Shown one piece after another: positions 27,096 through 64,000 of a stretch of DNA of 64,000 nucleotides. The notes beneath the pieces were generated by a model. It saw only the letters and a program-made list of their open reading frames with translations. It was not told where the DNA came from and did no database searches. Location: positions 464,759 through 528,758 of the forward strand of contig NZ_LT635454.1 of assembly GCF_900120005.1 (NCBI RefSeq), given 5' to 3'. The position numbers and the translations under genes were made by a program. Every line of letters begins with the position of its first letter. The stretch's first letter is position 1. This DNA comes from Holdemania sp. Marseille-P2844 (GTDB taxonomy: Bacteria > Bacillota_I > Bacilli_A > Erysipelotrichales > Erysipelotrichaceae).

Positions 27096-27458
27096 TATTA
27101 TCACCTGTTAATTATTATAAGCAAAATTAAGAACAAATAAAAGTATGAATAAGTTTTTCTAATATATTTTATAATCACAAACGATTTTAATTATACTAAA
27201 AGGGCGTGACTGAGTCATATTACATCGAGAAATCTAATTGAAATGATATTTTTATCATAATCCTGTAAATATTGTGTTTGCTAAAAACATTCGTATTATG
27301 CTGGAGTATTTAAAGTAAGAATTCATTGCCAATAAGGAATTAGAATAAGGAATGGAGTTTTATTGCATAACACCATGTAAAAAAAATATTTAAGAATTTT
27401 TATCATAGTTAGTTGCTGAATTATAAGATATAATGGATCAGTGTCAATGGAGGTTTTT
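27096..27458. other. 363-bp divergent intergenic region
   Basis: Separates the LtaS-like gene (-) from the first yfhO-like gene (+). It is very AT-rich, with no convincing reading frame or RNA structure. A TATAAT at 27429-27434, 24 bp before the ATG at 27459, is the likely -10 for the plus-strand gene, without a good -35. TGGAGG precedes the start. Nothing else is recognised. Confidence 0.5.
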
Positions 27459-49551: not shown

Positions 49552-51867
49552 ATGTTAAAAAAAGAAATAAAAGAGATAGTCTTATTAAGCTTATTGGTTC
49601 TTTTTATAAGCTTTTTTATGATGTCACCTTATTTATTAAATCAGATGCCATTGACATACGGTACTGATATAAAACCACAATGGTTTGAGTTTTATACTGA
49701 ATTTAAGAATTTGATAATACAGTTTTTTGAAACAAAACAATTACCTTTTTACTCATGGAATTTATTTTTAGGCAATAATTTCTATGCTTCTAAAAGTTAC
49801 TACTTGATGGGGGATATATTTAGTTACATAGGTTTGTTAATCCCTTTGAACTTCTTTGATGTTGCTCAAATATTAGAAGTAATAAAATTTTTAGTTTCAG
49901 GATGGACAATGTATTATTTGCTAGGATGCTATAAACTGAATTCTAAAGTTAAATTTATTGGTTCTATTGCTTATACATTCAGTTCTTGGGCAATTTTTTA
50001 TAGCGGGCAATTATCATTTCTTTCATTCTATTGCTGGATGCCATTATATTTTGCGTCCATAGAATTATATTTGCGAAAAGGGAAAAAGCTGATGTTTCCT
50101 TTTATCTGCATGATTTTATTATTCACAAATTTTTATTTCTTTTATACTCTATCTTTCTTTACTCCAATTTATTATATCTATCGCTATAGCTTGTTAAAAG
50201 ATAATTTTAAAAATTTTATAAAAGATACCCTAGTTTTAATTGGTTGTTATTTGCTAGGTGTTTTTATGACCGGTGTGTTAACATTGCCGACAATGGCATA
50301 TATTCTTCAAAATGACCGTGTTGGTCAATTTTCTTTGAAACTGTTTTTTGAACAACCAAGTATTTATCTTCACGAATTATGCGCTCGGTTAGTACCGAAT
50401 TATATCTATATTTATCGAACTAACGTTTTTGAAACTGCTACCCATACAACTAGAGAACTATGTTTATATAGCGGAACTTTAACTGCTGTTTTGCTACCGC
50501 AAATTTTTTCGGATAAAGATAAAAATTTCAGAAAAGTAACTTTAATATTCTATATAATTTTGAATTTATTTTTGATATTCCCATTTTTAAGTTCAATGGC
50601 TCATGGTTTTAGTGATCCAACTTTTCGATGGACAATGATATTAATCCTTGTTCAAATTTTGACTGTATGTAATTATTTGGAAAATATCAATCAATTAAAT
50701 ATTAAAAATTTAAAGATAACAATGGGTATTTCGATCTTTGTATTAATTGCAGTTATTCCGCTGACTGTGATCCTTTCAAAGGGAAATACAATATCTGCTT
50801 ATAGAAATCAAATATTGCTGTTTTTAGCTGCTATTATTTTTGTGATTTTGAACACTTGGCTTTTATTAAATAAAAAATCTTATATATGGATCTTAACGGT
50901 GTTGTGTATTGAATATTCCTTTTCAGGATTTACTTTATATTATTCTCGGATGCATAGTGAAGGAATAACTTATGAATTCATTGATTCTGTTACGCATGTA
51001 TTACAAGATGAAGATAATGAATTAAATGTTTTTTTGGAAAACATTGAACCGATCAATTGTTTGCAATATTATAGAATTTATATTCCTTTAGAATCAATTT
51101 ATTGGGACTTTAGTCATAATATGAGTTTAATGGTCCAATTGCAAGGAACAATGACTTACGATTCTACCTATGCACCAAGTTTTAATAAGATGAAAGAGAT
51201 TGTACCAGAAGTAAAAGATTATGATTCTGAATGGATTTTTAACATTAAAGAACCTAATGTGTTACAATTTTTAAGCGTGAAATACGCTATTGTCACACAC
51301 TTTTCAGAGTTGCCTGAAGGATTAAATTGGCGATTGCTGACAGACAATTATAGGTCTGGTTTATTAGTTTATAGAAATGATGATTATCGACCGCTAGGTA
51401 CAACGTATAATAAAATAATATCTTATGAAAATTATAATATAGGAAATCCTTTATCTTTACTAACTGATACTGTTTTATGCAGCTCAAAAGAGTTGCAAAC
51501 AATTCAAGAAAAAATGAAATCTACTTCTAGGGCTGAACTAGAGAATATCAAATATCAAGGAAACTATCTAACTGGCACATGTGATACAGACGAGTCTAGT
51601 TTTCTTGTTTTGTCGCTGCCTTATGATGAAGGCTGGAATGTCTTTGTAAATGGACAAAATGTAAAAACATATTCTGTTAATGGTGGCTTTGTTGGATTTG
51701 AGGTTGAAGCGGGTAATAATCAAATTGAAATGTATTTTACACCTGTAGGCTTTAAACAAGGAGCAATAATATCTTTGATTGGAATTATGGGATATGTTGT
51801 ATTAATTATTCATGAAAAATTAAAAACTAGAAATAGCAGGAGATATAAAAATGAGCAAAGTATTTAG
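49552..51867 (+). CDS. YfhO-family membrane protein 5
   Basis: 771 residues. Clearly the closest relative of yfhO-1: the first loop TYGTDIKPQWFEFYTEF, LPFYSWNLFLGNNFYAS, the helix region FYCWMPLYFASIELYL, THVLQDEDNELNVFL, YRIYIPLESIYWDFSHN, YDSTYAPSFNKM, FLSVKYAIV and LPYDEGWNVFVNGQNV line up one by one with that protein. The two probably arose by duplication and act on similar substrates. It has its own promoter and overlaps yfhO-6 by 17 bp. Confidence 0.88.
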   Translation: MLKKEIKEIVLLSLLVLFISFFMMSPYLLNQMPLTYGTDIKPQWFEFYTEFKNLIIQFFETKQLPFYSWNLFLGNNFYASKSYYLMGDIFSYIGLLIPLNFFDVAQILEVIKFLVSGWTMYYLLGCYKLNSKVKFIGSIAYTFSSWAIFYSGQLSFLSFYCWMPLYFASIELYLRKGKKLMFPFICMILLFTNFYFFYTLSFFTPIYYIYRYSLLKDNFKNFIKDTLVLIGCYLLGVFMTGVLTLPTMAYILQNDRVGQFSLKLFFEQPSIYLHELCARLVPNYIYIYRTNVFETATHTTRELCLYSGTLTAVLLPQIFSDKDKNFRKVTLIFYIILNLFLIFPFLSSMAHGFSDPTFRWTMILILVQILTVCNYLENINQLNIKNLKITMGISIFVLIAVIPLTVILSKGNTISAYRNQILLFLAAIIFVILNTWLLLNKKSYIWILTVLCIEYSFSGFTLYYSRMHSEGITYEFIDSVTHVLQDEDNELNVFLENIEPINCLQYYRIYIPLESIYWDFSHNMSLMVQLQGTMTYDSTYAPSFNKMKEIVPEVKDYDSEWIFNIKEPNVLQFLSVKYAIVTHFSELPEGLNWRLLTDNYRSGLLVYRNDDYRPLGTTYNKIISYENYNIGNPLSLLTDTVLCSSKELQTIQEKMKSTSRAELENIKYQGNYLTGTCDTDESSFLVLSLPYDEGWNVFVNGQNVKTYSVNGGFVGFEVEAGNNQIEMYFTPVGFKQGAIISLIGIMGYVVLIIHEKLKTRNSRRYKNEQSI

Positions 51868-54139
51868 AAAGCGGCCATGGATTTTATTAATTATTCTCCT
51901 TTCTTGTTTAGCAGGCAGTATCATCCTTCCATATATTCTTACAGATACGCCTTTTATGCTGGGATGGGATATGCGGACCCAATATAGTTCTTTCTATGAA
52001 AATCTTAAAACAATGTTCTTAGAAATGAAAAATACAGGTTCACTTCCATTTTATTCTTGGTCTGCATTCCTGGGTAATAATTTCTGGGGAAGTAAACTTT
52101 TCTATTATCATGATATATTTGATTATTTATCATTATTGATTTTTCCTAATTTTGATTATAATCGAGTTATTATGCTACAGACTTTTGTGAAATTGGGAAT
52201 TGCAGGGGTTTGTTTTTATCGCTATTGTCAATATCATCATTATTCCAGTTCTACAAGCATTATTGGCTCATTGCTATTTGCGTTTTCTTCGTATTCATTA
52301 GAAGCGTTAAAAGATCCATTTTTCCTGTCATTTTATATTTTTATCCCACTATATTTTCTGTCAATAGATCGGTATTTAATTGAGAAAAAGAAAATAGGAT
52401 ATATCTTAATTACTGCATTTTTAGCAATAACAAATTACTATCACTTTTATTCACTTAGTGTTTTCAGTGTTATTTATTTTATGTATAGATATTCATGTTT
52501 GCATAATACATTAAAAGGCTTTTTTAAAGAAGCAATCCCTTTAATTGGTACTTATATTATCGCTGTTTTACTTGCGGGATTCGCATTAATTCCTGAGTTT
52601 TTTAATATTCTTACGAATCAAAGAATTGGAAATTCATCTGCTTTCTTATTCTATGATAGTATAAAGACATATTTTTACATTTTATCTGGTTTGTTTTTTC
52701 CATCAAGTATAATCATCAATCGCACCAATGAATTTTCGTCAATCTATACTTATGTTTCTGATAATAACACTGTATTATATGTATGCCTTTGGGCAGGATC
52801 ATTTTGTTCTCTATTGATTCCGCAAATATTTTCAAAAAAAGGAAAGAACAAAAATATTATAATCTTTTTATTGGTTAATTTATTAATTATGATAATACCG
52901 TTTGGTTCTTCAATTATGCATGGCTTTAGTGAACCGGCTTTTCGTTGGTTTCAATTTCCTTTGTTTGTTAATCTTACTTTGATTCTGCCTTATTTAGATG
53001 AAAATCAACTTATTAATAGAAAATGTTTGTTCTTGTCTGTTTTATTTATATCTTTGATCCTTCTTTTAGGAACACCTTTATTAGGAATTTTGTGTAATAT
53101 TCCTTTTCAAAAATATAGCCGCGAATATAGTTTAATATTAATTGCTTTACCTTTTTTATGGATAGGTTATTTTGTCTTGTTAAAAGGGAAAAAATGGATA
53201 TTCATTGTTTTCACTTTCGTTGAGGTGTTGTTTGTGTCTTATATGTCAGTGTATTCTAACAGTTATTATCGGCAATTTACAAAAGAAACAATTCAAGGTG
53301 TTACTCACGTACTACAGAATCGCAATGATTTGAATCAATATCTTTTAACATTAGATGAGAAAAATAGTGAACAATTCTATCGTATTTATATTGATCCTAG
53401 TGCTGTTTATTGGGATTATTCTACGAATTTAAATTTAAATTTTAATGTTATGGGATTGATGACATATGATTCCACCGTATCTTCTTCAATTGTAGATATG
53501 AATCGGATTGCTGACATAGAGTCATATTTACCATGGTCTTATGAGATCAAAGATCCCTATCTGATAGATTTTTTATGCACAAAGTATGCGGTGGTTACAG
53601 ATATTTCACAACTTCCTCATAAGAATTTTAAACAGGTAGGGGAATTTAACTATCTTTTAATATTTGAAAATTTGAATTATCAAAATTTTGTCCGAACTTA
53701 TCATAATATAATAACGCTGAATCATGAGAATATTCAAAGCAAAGAACTATTAAATACTGTAATATGTCATGAAGAAGATCTTGATCAGTTGGAAAATTTA
53801 ATTAATTTATCAGGAAATGTAGAATGTACCTATATCAATCGTCAATCAAACCAGATCTATGCAGGAATTAATTCTTCCGATTCAGAGTTTATATCAATAC
53901 CTATTCCTTATGATGAAGGCTGGAATATTGAAATTAACGGAGAGAAAATTCAATATTATTCAGTAAATGGAGGCATGATTGGGTTTTCTGTTCCGAAGGG
54001 GTATAGTGAAATTCATATGATTTTTATCCCACAAGGTTTTAAGATGGGAATGGTGGCAAGTTTAACCGGTGTTTTTTTACTGATTATTTTAGTTATAGCC
54101 AAGAAAATTCAAAAGAAAGTAAAAAAGCAGAACTTGTAA
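51851..54139 (+). CDS. YfhO-family membrane protein 6
   Basis: 762 residues. First outside loop: FMLGWDMRTQYSSFYENL, then LPFYSWSAFLGNNFWGSKLFYYHD. Shares with paralogues 1 and 5 the segments THVLQNRNDLNQYL, YRIYIDPSAVYWDYSTN, YDSTVSSS and IPYDEGWNIEINGEKI, but the Asp loop GWDMRTQ is its own. The ATG lies inside the end of yfhO-5, preceded by AGCAGGAG. The stop codon is in the loop of a terminator shared with the convergent SDR gene. Confidence 0.88.
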   Translation: MSKVFRKRPWILLIILLSCLAGSIILPYILTDTPFMLGWDMRTQYSSFYENLKTMFLEMKNTGSLPFYSWSAFLGNNFWGSKLFYYHDIFDYLSLLIFPNFDYNRVIMLQTFVKLGIAGVCFYRYCQYHHYSSSTSIIGSLLFAFSSYSLEALKDPFFLSFYIFIPLYFLSIDRYLIEKKKIGYILITAFLAITNYYHFYSLSVFSVIYFMYRYSCLHNTLKGFFKEAIPLIGTYIIAVLLAGFALIPEFFNILTNQRIGNSSAFLFYDSIKTYFYILSGLFFPSSIIINRTNEFSSIYTYVSDNNTVLYVCLWAGSFCSLLIPQIFSKKGKNKNIIIFLLVNLLIMIIPFGSSIMHGFSEPAFRWFQFPLFVNLTLILPYLDENQLINRKCLFLSVLFISLILLLGTPLLGILCNIPFQKYSREYSLILIALPFLWIGYFVLLKGKKWIFIVFTFVEVLFVSYMSVYSNSYYRQFTKETIQGVTHVLQNRNDLNQYLLTLDEKNSEQFYRIYIDPSAVYWDYSTNLNLNFNVMGLMTYDSTVSSSIVDMNRIADIESYLPWSYEIKDPYLIDFLCTKYAVVTDISQLPHKNFKQVGEFNYLLIFENLNYQNFVRTYHNIITLNHENIQSKELLNTVICHEEDLDQLENLINLSGNVECTYINRQSNQIYAGINSSDSEFISIPIPYDEGWNIEINGEKIQYYSVNGGMIGFSVPKGYSEIHMIFIPQGFKMGMVASLTGVFLLIILVIAKKIQKKVKKQNL

Positions 54140-54149
54140 TCTGCTTTTT
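54122..54149. terminator. Bidirectional terminator between yfhO-6 and the SDR gene
   Basis: AAAAAGCAGA (54122-54131), loop ACTTGTAA holding the yfhO-6 stop (54137-54139), TCTGCTTTTT (54140-54149). A-run and T-run on opposite sides allow use on both strands; the SDR stop (54148-54150) touches the right arm. Confidence 0.88.
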
Positions 54150-55206
54150 ATCTTCTGAGGGCTAATTCATCTTCAATCATATCTATTGTGCGTCGGAAAC
54201 CATCCTGAATGGAAATCGTAGGTTTCCAACCTAAAGCTCTCAGCTTTTGAGTAGATACATTTATGTAGGTAGTTACCTTATTTTCAATATAAGAGGAATT
54301 TGTCTCACGTTTTTCCTTATAAAACCTAATATTTCTATCTGGAAAAGCTTTGATTATTTCTTGCGCTAGTTCTTTGATAGAAACGAAACATTCATCATTT
54401 GCCATATTGTAGGCTTCTCCGGGAAGTCCGTGAGACAATAAAGTAAGACAAGCAGAAACCAGGTCTAGTACATAACAAAAAGCTCGTTTTGCTTCTCCGG
54501 TTGATTTCATAATAATCTGGTTATTTTCAATTACAGATTTAACAAATTCACTAAATACGCGTTGATCATGATGATAATCTAATGTTGGACCGTAAGTATG
54601 AAAGATTCTTAGGCAAGTAACAGGGATTTGGTATTGTTCATAATATGATTTGCAAAGAGTTTCACCCATCCGTTTGCTTTCGCTATAACAACTGCGGATA
54701 TCTAACGGATCAATTGTACCCAATGTGTTTTCTGTAATAAGCTGAGAATTAGAAATTTTACCATAAACTTCAGCGCTTGAAAAATATAAAAAATGTTCAA
54801 TTTTTTTCTTGCGAGCTAATTCAAGAAGATAATAAGTACCCAAGATATTGGGCAGTGTAACATCAACTGGATTAGTTTTGTAATACTGAGGATCTGCCAA
54901 TGATGCAGCGTGAATGATATAATTGATTTTTTCTTCTGTTCTTAAAGGTGTGTTTAACTCTGAAACTAAACAATGAATATTTTTATTTAATTTATCACCA
55001 AACAATAATTCAACTTTTTTTAAATTTCGAACAATAAGCAGTATCCTTAAATTTAGATTTTTCACTGCATTTAAATAAATAAAGTATTCTGTTAAATATC
55101 GCCCAAGCATTCCTGTTGCCCCGGTTATAAGAAGTGTTTTATTTCTTAAGAACTCATAATCTAAATTCTGCGAAACTAATTCTTGAAAATCAGTAGTTAA
55201 GTCCAT
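54148..55206 (-). CDS. NAD-dependent epimerase/dehydratase (extended SDR)
   Basis: Nucleotide-sugar-modifying enzyme of the cytoplasm. From the ATG at 55206 (GGGAGG 5 bp upstream; a longer frame to 55227 covers that site) it has 352 residues. LLITGATGMLGRYL (29-35 is the NAD loop), YIIHAASLADPQYY, LYFSSAEVYG, CYSESKRMGETL (YxxxK) and the substrate-side HTYGPTLDYHHDQRVFSEF are typical extended-SDR features. The exact reaction (dehydration, epimerisation, decarboxylation or ketone reduction) cannot be told. In this locus a reductase or epimerase for the deoxysugars is attractive, for example the reduction that YerF does after YerE, but that is only context. It stands alone on the minus strand. 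Confidence 0.85.
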   Translation of the reverse strand: MDLTTDFQELVSQNLDYEFLRNKTLLITGATGMLGRYLTEYFIYLNAVKNLNLRILLIVRNLKKVELLFGDKLNKNIHCLVSELNTPLRTEEKINYIIHAASLADPQYYKTNPVDVTLPNILGTYYLLELARKKKIEHFLYFSSAEVYGKISNSQLITENTLGTIDPLDIRSCYSESKRMGETLCKSYYEQYQIPVTCLRIFHTYGPTLDYHHDQRVFSEFVKSVIENNQIIMKSTGEAKRAFCYVLDLVSACLTLLSHGLPGEAYNMANDECFVSIKELAQEIIKAFPDRNIRFYKEKRETNSSYIENKVTTYINVSTQKLRALGWKPTISIQDGFRRTIDMIEDELALRR

Positions 55207-55301
55207 GATATCCTCCCATAAAAACAAGCTATAATATATTATATAGTATAACTACTTTTGTTTCGACTAAACTTTAATTTTCTAGAGCTTATTTTAGAAA
55301 C

Positions 55302-55330
55302 TTGCATAACATTAGGTTAAAGGATAAAAT
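55302..55330 (+). promoter_or_regulatory. Promoter of the 55357 gene
   Basis: TTGCAT (55302-55307), exactly 17 bp, TAAAAT (55325-55330), 26 bp before the ATG. GAGGTG is the ribosome site. Confidence 0.6.
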
Positions 55331-55356
55331 AAGAAAAGATTTATTGAGGTGAAATT

Positions 55357-57150
55357 ATGAAATATCTTGTGGGCAGTGTATATCCAATTCTCTTAATACT
55401 GATCGCTGTTGTTTTATGGCATAATGATAAAATCAGGGAAACAGTAAAAACTAATAAAAAATCTATTTTGCTGTTTCTTTTATTTAATTTCGTAATGATT
55501 AATGTTATGTTATTTCTTCATTTGCGACAAGAACAGTTTATTGCTTATTGGGATTTTGGCGGTTTTTGGCGTAAATCAGTTGAATTTAATCAGATGATGG
55601 ATCGAAGTGTAAAAGAAGCCATGGATAACCTTTGGTTTTCATTGAACTATTCAGAATACTCATATTTACCTGAATGGTTCTTATATCTGCCAACGCAGTT
55701 ATTAGGAAGCTCTTATCCGCGATTTATTTTAGCAATGTTTAATAGTTTTGTACTTCCTGCTAATTTAATATTGTATATTTTTAGCTTGATGGTTTTAGGA
55801 GATAAACAATCAACGCTGAAAAAAGCTTTCCTGGGATTGTTTATCGCTACCTTTGCGGGTAATTTATATTCCATGGTTTTCGGATATATCGGCAGCGCAG
55901 GCTTACCTATCATTACCAGTATCTTGCTATTAGTTTATGCAGGCGGCTTAGATACATTTGAGTGGAAAAATAATGTCTTTATTGGGATATCTATGATAAT
56001 TCTATTATTAGTTAGACGATGGTTTGCTTATTGGATTGTAGGTTTCTATATTGCTTATACTTTAGCATATTTAATAAAGGAAGGGTCTGCGCACTCTCTT
56101 ACAAAGTCAAAAATAAAAGTACAATTTATGAATATGCTTGTTTGCGGCATCATTCCATTAACCATACTATTAACTTTATTCTTCCCTTTATTTAAAACAA
56201 TCACAACTTATAACTATGCTGAAGCATATTCTGTAGCAAAGGTTGGTGGGGCTGCTTATGTTATTGGCTGGTTCATTCAATTTTACGGTTGGCTTTTAAT
56301 CATTTTGCTAATCATCGGGTTCTTTTATGGGATTAAATCGAAAGAACATCGTCTAATTACTTGTTTATGTGTTATCCAAACATTAGTTGCTGTTATTTTA
56401 TTTAATCGTGTACAAAGCTTTGGATCTCATCATTATTACATTATTAATGGCCCTGTGATGATTCTGATGATTTTTGGTTTAAAGAAGGTTCTTGATTGTT
56501 TATCTGATAAGAAGAGTGTTGCACTTCTTGCGGCTTCTGCTTGCTTAATTTGTATAAATTTTTCAAAAACAGTGGTATTTGGCAAAAATCCCAAAGTTGA
56601 TGTATTCTTAGATAAATTAAATGTGTTGATATCAGCGCCTTTTCCTGATTTGAGAATCCGTAATGATCTTGATCAAATCCGAAATATGGCAGAATTTCTA
56701 GATAAGACGCCTAATGAATATGAATACGTATATGTTTTATCTAATTCTGTATTATTTAACGATGATATGTTAAGAAATGCCTTTTTTCCAGAGAAGAATG
56801 AAGGGGTAGCAAATTTGTTGGTTGCTGATGCTTATGATTACCGCGATGGAATACCCGCTGATTTTTTTCAGTATTACTATATTGTTGTTGCGGATCCTAT
56901 TCAACTTCAGTTTGGTGCAGAAAATCAGAAATGTGTCAGTATATTAGCAGAATTTATGCTGAATTCTGAAGAGTCTGGTCCTTATTATCGTATAGTTAGA
57001 GAATATGATTTAGACAATGATGTGCATATCAATATTTATCAAAGAGTAGAACAAGTTCCAAATGAAATGCGAAAAGAAATTAGTGATCGCTATCGGAGTT
57101 TTTACCCACATAATCCAGAACTTTATGAGTTTAATTTGTTATCAGAATAA
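55357..57150 (+). CDS. Multi-pass membrane protein, GT-C-like, unassigned
   Basis: 597 residues, about 11-12 helices up to near 400 and a soluble C-terminal part of about 180 residues. The first outside loop has IAYWDFGGFWRKSVEFNQMM (acidic residue where GT-C enzymes carry theirs), followed by YLPEWFLYLPTQLLGSSYPRF. The tail contains NEYEYVYVLSNSVLFNDDMLRN. It lacks the PYDxGW motif of YfhO and the HDT motif of the PTPS-related group, so it is a separate type. No named family recognised. It begins a unit with yfhO-7, 23 bp downstream. Confidence 0.75.
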   Translation: MKYLVGSVYPILLILIAVVLWHNDKIRETVKTNKKSILLFLLFNFVMINVMLFLHLRQEQFIAYWDFGGFWRKSVEFNQMMDRSVKEAMDNLWFSLNYSEYSYLPEWFLYLPTQLLGSSYPRFILAMFNSFVLPANLILYIFSLMVLGDKQSTLKKAFLGLFIATFAGNLYSMVFGYIGSAGLPIITSILLLVYAGGLDTFEWKNNVFIGISMIILLLVRRWFAYWIVGFYIAYTLAYLIKEGSAHSLTKSKIKVQFMNMLVCGIIPLTILLTLFFPLFKTITTYNYAEAYSVAKVGGAAYVIGWFIQFYGWLLIILLIIGFFYGIKSKEHRLITCLCVIQTLVAVILFNRVQSFGSHHYYIINGPVMILMIFGLKKVLDCLSDKKSVALLAASACLICINFSKTVVFGKNPKVDVFLDKLNVLISAPFPDLRIRNDLDQIRNMAEFLDKTPNEYEYVYVLSNSVLFNDDMLRNAFFPEKNEGVANLLVADAYDYRDGIPADFFQYYYIVVADPIQLQFGAENQKCVSILAEFMLNSEESGPYYRIVREYDLDNDVHINIYQRVEQVPNEMRKEISDRYRSFYPHNPELYEFNLLSE

Positions 57151-57173
57151 GTAGGGAGCGTTATATAGCTAAT

Positions 57174-59471
57174 ATGAAAGCATGGATATCCAGAAATAAA
57201 AACTTAATATTTATGTTGTTAGCAGCCATATTTATGATTTTTGGCATATATATTTTAGGCGGACGTGAATTCTTATTTAATGCTGATCAGCGACTGCAGT
57301 ATAATTATTTTTATGATGAATGGCTGAGATTAATTGAAAAGTTTATAACAAATGGAGAATTCCCGTTTTATTCGTGGAATACCTTTTTAGGGAATAATTT
57401 TTACGCGTCAAAAGCGTATTATGTTGTTGGCGATATATTTCTTCCATTTCTCTTTTTAATGCGCAGCAATTTGGATGTAGCACTGATGATCGAATCATTA
57501 ACGCTAATTTTTTTATCGGGGTTATTCTTTTCGGGTTATCTTAATGCATATGGTTTTAAAAATAATAATGTTATTCTGTTGCTCTCTTTAATATATGCAT
57601 TATCAGGTACATCTACAATTTTTGTGGGTCAATATATGTTTCATCGCTTTTATGCTTTTTTTCCGTTGTTGCTTTGGGGGATTGAATGCTATTTCAACAG
57701 AAATAAAAAGTGTTTATTCATCTTTTCAGTTTTTCTTTTGTTTATAACCAATTATTATTTAATGTTTCCGACCACACTGTTTTTGCCTTTATATTTCTGG
57801 CATACGTGGATACGCAGATATTCGTTTAATATAAAGAAGTTTTTTGCAAAAGCTTTCATTTTAGTGTTTTATTATTTTATAGGTTTTTTCATGGGATGTA
57901 TTATTGTTTTACCTGCAATTTTGTATATGTTAGGGAATTCCCGATTAGGTGAATATAATACGTGGAATAATTTTTGGGAATTTCGAGTTTATATGGGTTT
58001 TCTTTTTAGTTATATTACACCTCCTGCGACACTTTATACAACCATTCCTTATATTTTTGTCAGTGGTTTTAATGGACATGACTATTGGTATTCAATTTAT
58101 GCTTCTGTACTAGGCTGTATAACATTGTTTAGCTCGCTGATTTTTAGTAATAAAAAATTTAGAATCACGACGGTAATTCCTTATCTAATTTTGCTGACCA
58201 TAGCCTTCTATAAACCATTTAATTCTGTTATGCACGGTTTATCCCAACCCTCATTTCGCTGGTCGTTTTTGATATTTACTTTTGGATTGTTAATGACTGG
58301 TTATGTCTTAGAACATATTCATGATTGGACAAACAAATTGATTAAAGGTTATGCTGTTTATGTGATTTTGTATATAATCTATTTAGTCATTGGCTTTATG
58401 AACAAAACCGTTGTTTTGCCTGATCATAATTATCATTTATTGCTGAGTTTAATTTATTTACTGGTTGGCGGAATTTACTGCATATTCATAAAGAAAGGCC
58501 TGATTAAGTTTTTATATTTTTGCGTATACCTTGAATTGTGTTTTAGCATGACATTGACATGTTGGAATTTAAGTAAGGATTATCGTTCGTTTATTCCGTC
58601 TATTGATAGAAATATATTAAAATATTGGCAGGATGTAGATGAAGACCTTATGTTTAGAATTTATATCAATCCAGACGAACTGATGCCGATCAGTGATATG
58701 AATAAAAATCAATCCTTACCTTTGGGATATATGTCAACTGCTACTTATGATTCTACTTATGAACCAGAGTTAACAGAATATTTGAAGAACAATGGAATAA
58801 ACTGGCATAATGTTAACCTGAATTCAGAGGAACAATTAAAATCTTTAGGTGTAAAATATATCTTAGTTAAAAACCAACAGGAACTGCCTCAAGAATTAAG
58901 CGTAACAAAGGCGTTTGATATTAATGAATATCAAGCTTGGAAGCTTCAGGACTTTAAGTCCATTGGCTTAACCTATTCTTCATATGTTAGTGAAAACCAA
59001 GTAAATCCGAATCATTTAGCAAGTTGGGATTGGGATGAATCGTTAAAAGATCAAATGACGTCGTGGACATGGAGTACAACATTAATTATTCCAGAGATTT
59101 TAATGAATCGAGTTGCTAATTCAGAGGAACCGCAAGTTTCGTTTACTGTTACGGAGAAGTATAACAATGGAATAAAAGGTTATATAGAGGTAGTAAATGA
59201 GCCTTCGATTTTATATTTTTCAATACCCTACAGTAAAGGCTGGAAAGCTGTTGATAATGACAATTCTATTCCTATTTATAAAGTGAATAATGGATTTATA
59301 GGAATGTTGTTAGAGCCAGGTTATCATCAAATCCAGTTAAATTTTACACCCTATGGTTTTAAAGGTGGATCTGTTTTGAGTTTACTTGGCGGACTTGGAT
59401 TCGTCATTGTAATCTTAAATGAACACAAGGAAATTAAAAGTAAGACACTAAAAAAATTTAGAAAATCTTAA
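57174..59471 (+). CDS. YfhO-family membrane protein 7
   Basis: 765 residues. First outside loop: LFNADQRLQYNYFYDEWLRL, then FPFYSWNTFLGNNFYASKAYYVVGD. The outside domain has MFRIYINPDELMPISD, ATYDSTYEPELTEYL, SLGVKYILVKNQQELP, the hallmark IPYSKGWKAVDNDNS and a last helix. It is unusual in a Trp-rich stretch LASWDWDESLKDQMTSWTW in that domain. The ribosome site is weak (TAGGGAG about 14 bp before the ATG). The stop comes immediately before a perfect promoter for the next gene. Confidence 0.85.
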   Translation: MKAWISRNKNLIFMLLAAIFMIFGIYILGGREFLFNADQRLQYNYFYDEWLRLIEKFITNGEFPFYSWNTFLGNNFYASKAYYVVGDIFLPFLFLMRSNLDVALMIESLTLIFLSGLFFSGYLNAYGFKNNNVILLLSLIYALSGTSTIFVGQYMFHRFYAFFPLLLWGIECYFNRNKKCLFIFSVFLLFITNYYLMFPTTLFLPLYFWHTWIRRYSFNIKKFFAKAFILVFYYFIGFFMGCIIVLPAILYMLGNSRLGEYNTWNNFWEFRVYMGFLFSYITPPATLYTTIPYIFVSGFNGHDYWYSIYASVLGCITLFSSLIFSNKKFRITTVIPYLILLTIAFYKPFNSVMHGLSQPSFRWSFLIFTFGLLMTGYVLEHIHDWTNKLIKGYAVYVILYIIYLVIGFMNKTVVLPDHNYHLLLSLIYLLVGGIYCIFIKKGLIKFLYFCVYLELCFSMTLTCWNLSKDYRSFIPSIDRNILKYWQDVDEDLMFRIYINPDELMPISDMNKNQSLPLGYMSTATYDSTYEPELTEYLKNNGINWHNVNLNSEEQLKSLGVKYILVKNQQELPQELSVTKAFDINEYQAWKLQDFKSIGLTYSSYVSENQVNPNHLASWDWDESLKDQMTSWTWSTTLIIPEILMNRVANSEEPQVSFTVTEKYNNGIKGYIEVVNEPSILYFSIPYSKGWKAVDNDNSIPIYKVNNGFIGMLLEPGYHQIQLNFTPYGFKGGSVLSLLGGLGFVIVILNEHKEIKSKTLKKFRKS

Positions 59472-59472
59472 T

Positions 59473-59501
59473 TTGACATGCATTCATAAGTTTCCTATAA
59501 T
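59473..59501 (+). promoter_or_regulatory. Perfect consensus promoter, probably giving a leaderless mRNA
   Basis: TTGACA (59473-59478), exactly 17 bp, TATAAT (59496-59501). Both hexamers are perfect. The ATG of the next gene is at 59509, seven bases after the -10, where transcription itself should begin. Confidence 0.85.
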
Positions 59502-59508
59502 GACAAAC

Positions 59509-60786
59509 ATGAACACATTAAAAATAATAAGAAATCTGATTTTGATTTTATTGATAGCGATAGTGAGCGGGCTGGCTCTGAACACTATCGCTTTTTCACT
59601 TCCTGTTCAGCCCGTAAAAGAAAATCTTACAGAGAACCTGGAAGTTTTTGAAAAGGAAATGGAGTCGGAATATTTCAGGGTTATCGAAAACGATGACGCC
59701 ACCATGCTGGATTTATATACGGATGCTCTGATGATGAATACGATGATTTATGAGAGTGATCAAAGTAACTTTATTAATGCTGTGGCAGCACATCATTATT
59801 TCAACGAGGAACAAACGATGCAACAAAGCTTTCTGGATCTTGTTGAAGAAAAGACAGAAGGGAAAGAGGTCTACGCCTATGCACGATATTGGCATGGATA
59901 CCTGCTGCCGCTAAAGCTGGCATTGTCTTCAATGACCTATCTCGACTTTCGCATCTTAAACCTGTTTTTACAAATCCTTTTGTTAGGTCTGGCTGTAAAA
60001 ACAATGGCGGAACAGGGCGGCAGGAAGCTAGTGATCCCCTTATTAGTTGCTTTTGTCTTTCTAATGCCTGTCGCTACGGCCTATTGCTTACAGTATTCGT
60101 TTATTGTGTATATCACATTGATTGCGACGATTCTATTATTTCATTTCCGAGAGAACCTGGATCAAAGAAAAAATGCGATTTATTTCTTTTTCATTATCGG
60201 AGTGGTGACCAATTACTTTGACCTGTTGACTTATCCTCTGATTACGTTTGGAATTCCGGCGGTTCTTTTGTTATTCAGCGGTAAAAAGAAAACGACTATT
60301 TTAGAATCTTTGATCACTTTTGCGGCGATAGCCTGCGCCTGGATCGGTGGTTATGCCCTGATGTGGGTGGGGAAGTGGACTGTAGCTACGCTGGTTCTTC
60401 ATGAGAATATTTATCTGGATGCGATCCAACAGATTATTCTGCGTACTAACGATGAAGTGAAGAATTTGGAACTAACCTATTCCATGGTATTAGAAAAAAA
60501 TCTGAAATTGCTGCAGCGTTTACCCTATGCTCTTTTATTCTATATTCCATTAATAACGAAAATTCCTTCAATCGTCGCTTTACTGATTCACGATCAACGG
60601 GTATTCTTTCAGAAAATACTGATAATGGCCTGTTTCGTATGTGTCCCCTTAGTTTGGATTCTTGTTTTGCGGAATCATTCATTTATGCATTATTTTTATA
60701 CGTATCGTATTTTAATTATTGCTTCATTCGCAATTCAGTGCGCTGCTTTTTCAACCCTGTCATTATTGCGAAATGCTGAAGAGTAA
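59509..60786 (+). CDS. Multi-pass membrane protein, unassigned, probable GT-C type
   Basis: 425 residues from the ATG at 59509. A longer frame starts with a TTG inside the -35 box and is impossible if that promoter is used. One helix at about 8-30, an outside loop of about 100 residues with DDATMLDLYTDALMMNTMIY and YARYWHGYLLPLKLALSS, then about eight helices. The YARYWHGY motif recurs in uncharacterised Firmicutes membrane proteins as far as I remember; function is unknown. No ribosome-binding site fits the start, in line with a leaderless transcript. GC content is clearly higher than in the core. Confidence 0.75.
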   Translation: MNTLKIIRNLILILLIAIVSGLALNTIAFSLPVQPVKENLTENLEVFEKEMESEYFRVIENDDATMLDLYTDALMMNTMIYESDQSNFINAVAAHHYFNEEQTMQQSFLDLVEEKTEGKEVYAYARYWHGYLLPLKLALSSMTYLDFRILNLFLQILLLGLAVKTMAEQGGRKLVIPLLVAFVFLMPVATAYCLQYSFIVYITLIATILLFHFRENLDQRKNAIYFFFIIGVVTNYFDLLTYPLITFGIPAVLLLFSGKKKTTILESLITFAAIACAWIGGYALMWVGKWTVATLVLHENIYLDAIQQIILRTNDEVKNLELTYSMVLEKNLKLLQRLPYALLFYIPLITKIPSIVALLIHDQRVFFQKILIMACFVCVPLVWILVLRNHSFMHYFYTYRILIIASFAIQCAAFSTLSLLRNAEE

Positions 60787-60815
60787 GTTTATAGCGTGTT
60801 TTCTTCTCTGAAAAA

Positions 60816-60845
60816 TTCACAACCCGAATTAAATTCTGGTATACT
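60816..60845 (+). promoter_or_regulatory. Promoter of the GT2-GT4-DUF6056 operon
   Basis: TTCACA (60816-60821), 18 bp, TATACT (60840-60845) with an extended TG (TG-G-TATACT). Start codon 17 bp downstream. Confidence 0.7.
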
Positions 60846-60862
60846 ATAAAAGGTGATGAAAA

Positions 60863-61849
60863 TTGAAACATCTTGTCAGTGTCATTGTTCCAGTCTATAA
60901 CGTGCAAGCCTATCTTGACCGATGTGTTCAGTCAATTGTAGATCAGACGTATTCAAATTTGGAAATTCTTTTAATTGATGACGGCTCAACGGATGAGTCA
61001 TATCGATTAATGCAGAACTGGGCTGAAAAAGACAAACGAATTCATTTGCTTCAAAAGACAAATGGCGGATTAAGCGATGCCCGGAATTTTGGAATCCAAA
61101 GAGCGCAGGGAGAATACTTAGCGTTTATCGACAGCGATGATTTTATTCGCCCGGCGATGATCGAAAAAATGTTGGCGGCGATGGTCGAGCAGCAAGCTCA
61201 AATCGGTGTTTGCGATATGGAGTATCTCTATGATGACGGCCGGGTCGAATTTGCCAGCGGCGGAGCGTTTGCTGTGGGGGATGTGAAAACCCATCCGGAA
61301 TTAATTCGTATGAATAACAGCGCTTGTAATAAGCTTTTCGCTCGTTCTCTGTTTCAGGACATTGAATTTCCGGTTGGAAAATGGTATGAAGATTTGGCAA
61401 CGATTCCGATGATCTGCTTTAATGCGGAACGGATTGTGAAAGTGAACGAAGCGTTTTATGTTTATTATCAGCGGTCAGGTTCGATCGCGCACAGCGCAAA
61501 TCCTAAAATATTTGATATCTATAAAGCGATTCAGCGTGTCATTGAATATATAGAGATTCATTGCGATGATACATCTTTGAAAAACCAGTTTATTCTGGAA
61601 ATGAAGCATTGCTATATCATCCATGGATTAGATTTAACGACGCTGCGGATCAAGGACTTTGATGAATCGGAAGACAGGGAAAAGTATTTGGCGGAAAACA
61701 TGAAGCAATTAAAACAGTGTTATCCGGATTGGGAGCAGGATGCATTCGTAAAATCAGCGGGATTGAAGAAAAAACTGATCATTGCGCTGTTGAAGAGGAA
61801 ACAATGGAAGGCGGTGCTCGGCATTTATGACCGGTCAAAATCAGCGTGA
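60863..61849 (+). CDS. Family 2 glycosyltransferase (EpsJ/CpsI-like, soluble)
   Basis: Cytoplasmic GT-A transferase for building a lipid-linked surface glycan. 328 residues, TTG start with AAAGGTG 7 bp upstream; the nearby ATG at 60856 is in another frame. VSVIVPVYNVQAYLDRCVQS, LLIDDGSTDESYRLM, NGGLSDARNFGIQRAQGEY and AFIDSDDFIRPAM (metal site DSDD) are textbook family features, followed by NKLFARSLFQDIEFP and WYEDLATIPM. No membrane helix, unlike the GT2 genes of the core. It overlaps the GT4 gene by 23 bp and is GC-richer than the core. Confidence 0.92.
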   Translation: MKHLVSVIVPVYNVQAYLDRCVQSIVDQTYSNLEILLIDDGSTDESYRLMQNWAEKDKRIHLLQKTNGGLSDARNFGIQRAQGEYLAFIDSDDFIRPAMIEKMLAAMVEQQAQIGVCDMEYLYDDGRVEFASGGAFAVGDVKTHPELIRMNNSACNKLFARSLFQDIEFPVGKWYEDLATIPMICFNAERIVKVNEAFYVYYQRSGSIAHSANPKIFDIYKAIQRVIEYIEIHCDDTSLKNQFILEMKHCYIIHGLDLTTLRIKDFDESEDREKYLAENMKQLKQCYPDWEQDAFVKSAGLKKKLIIALLKRKQWKAVLGIYDRSKSA

Positions 61850-62999
61850 CAAACGCAGAATTTTATTTGTTAACGATGAAATGGAAATGGGCGGCGTCGC
61901 CCGCGTTTTAAATACATTGATGAAAAATCTTGATCAGCAGGTATATCAAATCGATTTGTTGGTCTTACATAAAACAGGCACACTGCTTCAGGATATCCCG
62001 GAAGGTGTGCGTGTGATTGAAGGAACATCGTTTTTTAACGCCGTGGACAGCCCGCTCAAAGAATTACTGAAAAAGGGAGACCTTCCGCATCTTTTCAGTA
62101 AGCTGCGCTTGCTGCTGTACATGAAAACAGGATTGATCCGCAGTAAAATCCTCAAGGAGCGAAAAAAGATGCTGTCCGGCGTCTATGATGTGGAAATGGC
62201 GGCGAAAGAGGGATTCTGTACAATCTTTACCGCTTATGGCAATAGTAAGCGGAAAGTCAATTGGGTATTGACTGATTACAGTGTCTGCAATTACTCCGCG
62301 AATCATATGCGATTGGTGAAGTCTGCTCTGCAGAAGATTGACCTGAATATTGCGGATTCAGCGGAAGCTACGGAGGCCTATAAAAAGGTCTTTGGAATTC
62401 AGAATGTCATAACGATTCATAATCTGATGAATACTGAAAAAGTAGAAAAAGGAAAGACAAAAACAGAAGATCAAGCAGAGATTGATCCTTCAAAACTGAA
62501 TTTGATTTCGGTGATCCGATTTCATCCGCAAAAGGCGGCGGATCGATTGCTGCAGGCGCATAAATATGTGCTGGATCAAGGGATTGAACATGAACTTTAT
62601 TTAATTGGCGGCGGCGAGCAGGAAGCGATGTTGTTGAAAATGCAGAAAGATCTGAATCTGACACACCTTCATTTCCTGGGCTTTAAAACAAATCCGTATG
62701 CTGATATCCGGGCTTGCGATTTGTTTGTTCTGCCTTCTTTGTATGAAGGCTTCGCGACGGTGATCAATGAATCGTTTATTGCCGGAACGCCGGTCTTGTC
62801 GACGGAGGTTGCGGGCGTTCATGAACAGATCACCGCTCCGCATTATGGATGGATTGTTGAGAATAGCCAGAAAGGCTTGAACGAAGGTTTGCTGAACGCG
62901 TTGCAATCGAAGGATCAGTTGCAGGAGATGAAACGGCAGCTGCAGGGGTATCATTATCCGAATGATGAAATCATCCGAAAGTTTACAGAAGTTTTATAA
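61827..62999 (+). CDS. Glycosyltransferase family 4
   Basis: Retaining GT-B transferase for a surface glycan. 390 residues. The N-terminal acceptor domain opens with RRILFVNDEMEMGGVARVLN (the GG loop). The donor domain has NLISVIRFHPQKAADRLLQA, LYLIGGGEQEAMLL and the conserved EGFATVINESFIAGTPVL (E-x7-E), then TEVAGVHEQI. The start overlaps the previous gene by 23 bp with only a weak ribosome site, so translational coupling is likely. The DUF6056-like gene follows 13 bp later with a strong GGAGG. Confidence 0.92.
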   Translation: MTGQNQRDKRRILFVNDEMEMGGVARVLNTLMKNLDQQVYQIDLLVLHKTGTLLQDIPEGVRVIEGTSFFNAVDSPLKELLKKGDLPHLFSKLRLLLYMKTGLIRSKILKERKKMLSGVYDVEMAAKEGFCTIFTAYGNSKRKVNWVLTDYSVCNYSANHMRLVKSALQKIDLNIADSAEATEAYKKVFGIQNVITIHNLMNTEKVEKGKTKTEDQAEIDPSKLNLISVIRFHPQKAADRLLQAHKYVLDQGIEHELYLIGGGEQEAMLLKMQKDLNLTHLHFLGFKTNPYADIRACDLFVLPSLYEGFATVINESFIAGTPVLSTEVAGVHEQITAPHYGWIVENSQKGLNEGLLNALQSKDQLQEMKRQLQGYHYPNDEIIRKFTEVL

Positions 63000-63012
63000 C
63001 GGAGGCGGATGT

Positions 63013-64000
63013 ATGGAAAAATTAAAAAAAGGAAAGTCCTGGTGCTGGCTGTTAGGCGCTTTGTTCATCTTTGTCCTGTTTTACTACATGACCGTCAGGA
63101 CGCCCCTGGCGGGAGATGATTGGGGCTACGCAGTCAATGGGATGAGCGGAAATCCGTTCGTCAAAGCGTGGGAATTCTATTTCACCTGGTCGGGGCGTTA
63201 TTTCGCGGAGCTTTGGGGCTTTATCGTCGCGCCGAGAAAAGGTCTGTGGAATTTCCTGAATCCTGCCTTATTCGCGGGAATCTATGTTTTGCTATATCAA
63301 ATTGTGAATCCAAAGCGTAATCCGCTATCCGTAGCGGTCTTGATTGCCGCGATGATGTTAACGGTTGCGGACCGGCTGCGGATGGAAACCTATACATGGA
63401 TTATGGGGACAACCTACGTCGTGCCGTTATTTTTGATTCTGCTGATCATCTGGATGATGAAAAATATCTTGTTTTCGGAACGGAAAATAAAAAAAGGACA
63501 TTATGCCGCGCTGATCCTTCTTAATTTTTATATCGGTTTGGCTATGGAAAATTGTTCAGCGGCCAGTATTTTGCTGAATCTTCTGATGCTGCTCTACGCA
63601 TATTTCAAGCGAAAAGACGCGTTGAAGTTAACGGGTGCGGGACTCGTGGTCAGCGTGCTTGGCTTTGCCTTGATCCGGATGTCGCCGGGCGCGGCGTTCC
63701 GGCTGGCGCGGGATAACCAGGCATGGATTGCGCTGGGCTTGTTTGGTCAGATCCAGCAGAACTGGGGTAATTTCCTGAATTACACGTTTATTGCGAATAA
63801 ATATATGATGCTGATTCTGAGTCTGATCACATTCCTGGCTTTGATTCATCATTGGGTAGACCGGATCTGGATGAATAAAAAAGATAAGCTGGCGGCGTTC
63901 GTTCAAGGATTCATCCTGACGATCGCGATCGTGGCCTGCTTTGCCCCGACATTCGTCGAGAAAATGAACCTTGAGGTTTTCAGTTTCTTTTATGACTTGG
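63013..64000 (+). CDS. DUF6056-like multi-pass membrane protein (3' end outside window)
   Basis: The frame is open from the ATG at 63013 (after GGAGGCGG) to the end of the window, 329 complete codons with no stop. After one helix (about 14-30) comes the outside segment PLAGDDWGYAVNG with FYFTWSGRYFAELWGFIVAP, the acid and W-(S/N)-G-R pattern that I link to DUF6056. The segment MLTVADRLRMETYTWIMG and at least six more helices follow. Proteins of this type occur in surface-glycan loci and may be GT-C transferases; no activity is known. Third gene of the operon started at about 60846. Confidence 0.78.
   Translation, partial: MEKLKKGKSWCWLLGALFIFVLFYYMTVRTPLAGDDWGYAVNGMSGNPFVKAWEFYFTWSGRYFAELWGFIVAPRKGLWNFLNPALFAGIYVLLYQIVNPKRNPLSVAVLIAAMMLTVADRLRMETYTWIMGTTYVVPLFLILLIIWMMKNILFSERKIKKGHYAALILLNFYIGLAMENCSAASILLNLLMLLYAYFKRKDALKLTGAGLVVSVLGFALIRMSPGAAFRLARDNQAWIALGLFGQIQQNWGNFLNYTFIANKYMMLILSLITFLALIHHWVDRIWMNKKDKLAAFVQGFILTIAIVACFAPTFVEKMNLEVFSFFYDL

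Follow-up and report, generated by a model that had tools for sequence, protein, structure and literature searches.

We found that a conserved membrane-protein gene of Holdemania, a genus of the Erysipelotrichales, is very probably expressed from a leaderless mRNA. The gene lies in a 64-kb stretch of Holdemania sp. Marseille-P2844 DNA (the window), directly behind a perfect consensus promoter and at the edge of a species-variable genomic island. In our best explanation of this arrangement, to which we give a probability of roughly 0.74, a housekeeping-type (sigma-A) promoter in the 37-nt intergenic gap would start RNA at, or within ~3 nt of, A59509. The message would then open with the start codon and be translated as a leaderless mRNA, with 70S ribosomes presumably binding the 5'-terminal AUG directly, as described in other bacteria. 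The conserved gene would thereby be expressed independently of whichever island gene sits upstream, and a terminator-like hairpin at codons 16-30 may tune its transcription through attenuation or polarity.

Table 1 Features at the predicted leaderless gene and its neighbors (positions in the window)
Feature	Position	Strand	Remarks
YfhO family membrane protein gene	57174-59471	+	765 aa; Pfam PF09586, E 6e-68
21-nt identical block	59457-59477	+	last YfhO codons, stop codon and first 5 bases of the -35 hexamer
-35 hexamer TTGACA	59473-59478	+	TTGACT in both relatives
Spacer, 17 nt	59479-59495	+	length kept, sequence not; 6/17 identical per species pair
-10 hexamer TATAAT	59496-59501	+	invariant across three species
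Seven bases GACAAAC between -10 and ATG	59502-59508	+
ATG, predicted start of translation and, at A59509, of transcription	59509-59511	+	7 bases past the -10 in three species
Predicted leaderless ORF	59509-60786	+	425 aa multi-span membrane protein, no named family
Hairpin in coding sequence	59556-59592	+	stem perfect, 10 bp (H. massiliensis: 8 bp); loop region 17 nt
T run (five T) that follows the stem	59592-59596	+	stem closed by the first of these T; terminator-like; same in all three species
Glycosyltransferase promoter-like site, TTCACA-18-TATACT	60816-60845	+	-10 preceded by TG; no differences among the three species
Family-2 glycosyltransferase	60863-61849	+	conserved; SD-like AAGGTGATG before a TTG start

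A consensus promoter adjoins the predicted start codon

An earlier note on this DNA had described TTGACA and TATAAT separated by 17 bases, the latter ending at 59501, with an ATG at 59509; both the letters and the coordinates are exact (Table 1). The promoter begins at the second base past the YfhO stop codon and fills the intergenic gap. It scores 12/12 and is the top promoter-like site within positions 50000-64000 of the window. Perfect TTGACA-16/18-TATAAT promoters number 2 in the window, against 0.08 expected from shuffled sequences, and 27 across all 3.68 Mb of the genome, where a reversed control pattern occurs once. The other one in the window, and the only one besides the promoter described here, lies at 27420-27447 on the minus strand, within a 510-codon open frame on the opposite strand.

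Transcription usually starts 6-8 nt past the -10 hexamer, and the only purine found at that distance in all three Holdemania species compared (see below) is the A of the ATG. The first T of TATAAT lies 13 bp before the ATG, much as in leaderless genes, whose sigma-70-type -10 box lies about 10-13 bp upstream of the start codon. We detected no Shine-Dalgarno (SD) match of at least 4 nt before ATG59509 or before any other candidate start of the ORF, in agreement with the earlier note, which had seen no ribosome site. That note had gone on to propose a leaderless start, a reading supported by the conservation of the promoter, its spacing and the ATG across the three species; the RNA start itself is a predicted position.

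The reading frame is also open upstream of ATG59509, a point absent from the earlier note, with an in-frame ATG59500 inside the -10 box and an in-frame TTG59473 within the -35. We rejected TTG59473 as the start codon, given that the peptide from there to ATG59509 is not conserved. Transcripts of this promoter are expected to begin downstream of ATG59500, and for these alone we rejected it. Over the 12 codons upstream of ATG59509, replacement differences outnumber silent ones in every species pair, so this segment is not coding-like. ATG59500 aside, the three species have no in-frame start in common before codon 50 except ATG59509.

A distant homologue in another genus (about 22-23% identity) begins at the methionine that matches ATG59509, and has an SD-like AAGAGGA 6 nt before its start. 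The start codon therefore looks right, and the leaderless state appears peculiar to the Holdemania lineage; to judge from this one homologue, the gene may ancestrally have had a leader. H. massiliensis also has a partial match that resembles a paralogue (L033, 28%); inspection of its reverse strand by eye shows an apparent SD-like GGGGG ahead of the ATG.

The N-terminal membrane helix proposed from the sequence is borne out by a 19-residue hydropathy scan, in which residues 1-33 are strongly hydrophobic. Searches of Pfam and NCBIfam with the ORF protein returned no family above cut-off, and PHROGs and PDB sequence searches returned nothing meaningful. Assignment to YfhO or another named membrane glycosyltransferase family was considered and dropped, as no curated profile matched the protein. 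An AlphaFold2 model built from three sequences had a mean pLDDT of 37 and is useless.

The promoter is conserved beside a changing neighbor

We compared the locus with those of the nearest named relatives, H. filiformis DSM 12042 (L035) and H. massiliensis AP2 (L036), so that all conservation described here is among three species. The ORF protein is 97% identical to its H. filiformis orthologue and 76% identical to that of H. massiliensis. Across 60 genomes, the protein was found in 4, its own included: the three Holdemania and, in another genus of the family, the distant homologue (23% identity over the part that aligns). The three loci align without gaps from the -35 hexamer (TTGACA in the window, T as the last base in both relatives) through 17 nt, TATAAT and 7 nt to the ATG. 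Invariant positions make up 11/12 of the hexamers versus 3/17 of the spacer (Fisher p 1.2e-4), and this retention of the hexamers beside a spacer that has turned over indicates that the predicted promoter is under selection. Between the window and H. filiformis, 11 of the 17 spacer positions have changed, whereas the third codon positions of the gene differ at only 19/425; the hexamers and the ATG have thus outlasted local turnover. Judged from these alignments, the promoter layout is not a product of chance.

The spacer turnover has a partial cause in the history of the locus, since DNA homology to the relatives breaks just upstream. From ~57151 to 59449 we found no DNA match to either relative, and both H. 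filiformis and H. massiliensis carry a different YfhO gene at this place. Homology resumes on both sides of the swapped gene, on the downstream side at 59450-59457. The spacer probably arrived with the swapped YfhO tract, which we infer to be the likeliest cause of its turnover. A search of five genomes with the window spacer gave, its own locus aside, one match with 2 mismatches, which means little. The 21-nt block at 59457-59477, identical in the three species, is present once per genome.

YfhO-type match segments number 10 in the genome by protein search, and all are on contig C17. The rise in GC content that the earlier note placed at the promoter is real, and it is sharp at third codon positions: GC3 goes from 0.295 in the upstream gene to 0.430 in the ORF and to 0.459 and 0.496 in the next two genes. 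GC per kilobase climbs gradually (0.31, 0.36, 0.38, 0.42, 0.44, 0.48). As read from sequence, the promoter is the seam at which a species-variable, low-GC glycan island ends and conserved genes begin. The earlier note was silent on this seam, on the conservation across species and on the intragenic hairpin described below. At the end of the H. filiformis YfhO gene, a run of N of ~1.7 kb (L035 3221-4935) has AAATTCAAAAAA at both edges, and reflects overlap in the assembly or, perhaps, an insertion left unassembled.

The layout is exceptional within this genome

Among the 27 perfect promoters of the genome, two have an ORF of at least 60 aa starting within 10 nt: this gene and L015. At L015, an in-frame start carrying AAAGGAGG lies 8 codons later, and in L066, its apparent H. 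filiformis counterpart, the same ATG opens just 12 codons. Only one of the 27, that of the gene described here, therefore has a long ORF within leaderless distance and lacks a nearby SD start. We also sampled 355 ORFs from 464 kb (the 64-kb window and 20 further stretches), called by a crude script. An SD match was present at the chosen start in 319 of them, and 36 had none at any candidate start. A -10-like hexamer 5-9 nt before the ATG was found in 9/355; by this crude SD scoring and gene calling, the combination of such a hexamer with a good -35 and no SD was found in 1/355, again this gene. The leaderless layout is exceptional within this genome.

The earlier note had called a perfect promoter with leaderless translation unusual in Firmicutes, which is half right: the layout is rare in its own genome, but leaderless genes have been predicted in 56/209 Firmicutes genomes, at a mean of 4.2% (Zheng 2011, PMC3160421). 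The same study reports them as concentrated in Lactobacillales and Mycoplasma, and places the leaderless signal ~12 bp before the start (PMC3160421). Measured leaderless shares are given as ~9% in streptococci (PMC6431027) and <1% in enterococci (PMC7724050), and for Bacillus methanolicus none is reported as strictly leaderless (PMC4342826). Leaderless mRNAs are thus already known in Firmicutes, and in this genome the case is a rare one.

The leaderless genes described in Lactococcus, Streptococcus and Mycoplasma resemble this one in having TATAAT ~12 bp before the AUG and no SD (PMC3160421, PMC6431027), and those of streptococci are likewise reported to be conserved between species (PMC6431027). 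Unlike the Lactobacillales and Mycoplasma clades as presented in PMC3160421, the host here is Holdemania, the -35 is a full consensus and the class appears very rare in the genome. In this human gut Firmicutes genus, which otherwise uses SD starts, the locus offers a comparatively clean leaderless case retained between species, and can be used to probe why one gene remains leaderless.

The pattern TTGAC-N18-TATAAT-N4-8-ATG is present in 45/60 genomes. We examined 30 of the listed places (L037-L066), of which six open an ORF of at least 60 aa; in four of these six, a strong SD start lies 7-9 codons later. This filter left L062 (289 aa) and the weak L061 (72 aa). With so few loci holding up, most matches to the pattern appear incidental. 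L062, from another genus of the family, is itself a leaderless candidate: its TTGACC-17-TATAAT lies 6 nt upstream of the ATG that opens the SD-less 289-aa ORF.

A terminator-like hairpin lies inside the gene

By eye, we found a hairpin element in codons 16-30 (59556-59596) that consists of AGCGATAGTG, 17 nt, CACTATCGCT and five T; the statistics that follow were computed after it was seen. The element ends 88 nt past the predicted RNA start, within the gene's own first membrane helix. As in a terminator, the stem is stable and leads straight into a U run, here a short one (5). The local fold has an energy of -19.5 kcal/mol (z -4.0) in the window, with a 10-bp stem, and of -13.6 (z -3.1) in H. 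massiliensis, with an 8-bp stem. Taken over the first 97 nt as a whole, H. massiliensis gives a weaker signal (z -1.3), and neither the minimum-energy nor the centroid structures of these 97 nt contain a competing antiterminator fold.

Of 11 codons examined at the core repeat and in the stretch that follows it, 10 are the same in the window as in H. massiliensis, above the 133/305 identical same-residue degenerate codons overall (p 0.0014). The right arm and T run together form 23 identical nt, one of the two longest identical stretches in the gene; the occurrence of invariant runs of 23 and 20 nt elsewhere in the gene counts against the hairpin. The 464-kb sample contains 40 terminator-like sites, 5 of them inside same-strand ORFs of at least 150 aa. 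A comparable element in coding sequence was found in 3/355 genes anywhere, and in 2/355 within the first 120 nt from the chosen start. The second of these two is on the minus strand of L084 (19180-19520), where a terminator-like hairpin and T run lie ~90 nt into the called CDS. The distant homologue has no such hairpin, and an Rfam search of 59000-61200 returned only two chance-level snoRNA matches. Beyond the three Holdemania genomes, a single genome among the 60 matches the core repeat, with a different middle.

These comparisons point to the hairpin as a probable conserved element that may act as an attenuator, a polarity element or an operator. That it is instead a chance outcome of the encoded protein, or an operator acting as DNA (an inverted repeat to which a regulator binds), with no role as terminator or attenuator, is a serious contender at somewhat less than even odds. 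The stem pairs show no compensatory changes among the three species, the pairing being kept by identity, and the repeat is a DNA palindrome too. Accident sits poorly with synonymous reshuffling of codons 1-40, which seldom yields such a hairpin (44/20,000 for the 10-bp stem of the window; 57/20,000 for the 8-bp stem of H. massiliensis), and the T run directly after the stem on the sense strand, together with a core repeat that occurs at no other place in the three Holdemania genomes, also argues for a terminator-like element. Ribosome-gated termination in turn has against it that B. subtilis RNA polymerase is reported to outrun ribosomes (PMC13323073).

Other possible sources of the transcript

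The YfhO gene and the ORF are co-directional, only 37 nt apart, and our terminator scan gives no site between the YfhO gene and the ATG. The gene might then be expressed mainly by read-through from the YfhO operon, with ATG59500 or ATG59509 used on a long SD-less mRNA and the promoter playing a minor part. We consider this unlikely, since the promoter hexamers have been kept although the upstream gene was swapped and no SD precedes either ATG. ATG59500 is present in all three species, but it is part of TATAATG, and its conservation is accounted for by the -10 box.

If the leaderless reading is right, read-through RNA could meet a different fate from RNA born at the promoter. An internal AUG with no SD should go untranslated on read-through RNA, so that 59509-59596 would lie free of ribosomes, the hairpin would form and transcription would end. 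RNA born at the promoter would start with AUG, load a ribosome at once and have its hairpin kept open. The hairpin would then act as a gate at the island boundary, a terminator that passes only transcripts born at the leaderless promoter, an idea that we regard as quite unlikely. In its favor are the leaderless short ORFs in mycobacterial (PMC13236596, from its cited title) and corynebacterial (PMC11857589) attenuators, and the uORF-based attenuation reported for B. subtilis vmlR (PMC9226507). The outrunning of ribosomes by RNA polymerase in B. subtilis speaks against it, and the same source classes Bacillota as having runaway transcription (PMC13323073).

The mycobacterial polycysteine ORFs and the Corynebacterium ilvBNC leader share with this locus leaderless translation beside an intrinsic terminator or attenuator (PMC13236596, PMC11857589), but those systems, as described, have a small leader peptide ahead of the structural gene, whereas here the hairpin lies within the structural gene. 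In vmlR, as in the proposed gate, ribosome position decides whether the terminator forms; vmlR differs in having a long leader with alternative hairpins, where this gene would have no leader (PMC9226507). In open-licence PubMed Central titles and abstracts on leaderless genes with attenuation or with intrinsic or intragenic terminators, and on leaderless genes or promoters of Holdemania, we recognized no case of a terminator inside a leaderless structural gene. A gate, if true, would insulate the conserved block from whichever cassette sits upstream. More broadly, the position at the island edge and the hairpin suggest that leaderless translation could insulate a gene from changing neighbors.

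We think it very unlikely that the promoter, though strong, leaves a leader of 2-5 nt or that translation begins at a later internal start, such that the gene is not strictly leaderless. In the window, RNA could start at any of A59505-A59507, and A59507 or a base nearby would leave a 2-4 nt leader, but H. massiliensis has A, G and T at these positions, so only those nearer to the box could be shared, while the first later in-frame start shared by the species is codon 51 (zero-based 50), which is past the first membrane helix and has no well-placed SD common to them.

The downstream gene

The predicted leaderless transcript may serve mainly its own ORF, since the conserved glycosyltransferase gene that follows has a promoter-like site of its own (Table 1). 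The region from this site up to the glycosyltransferase start (60816-60862), with GAATTAAATTC inside the promoter spacer, is letter-identical in the three species, spacer included, unlike the leaderless promoter, and may hold a regulator site.
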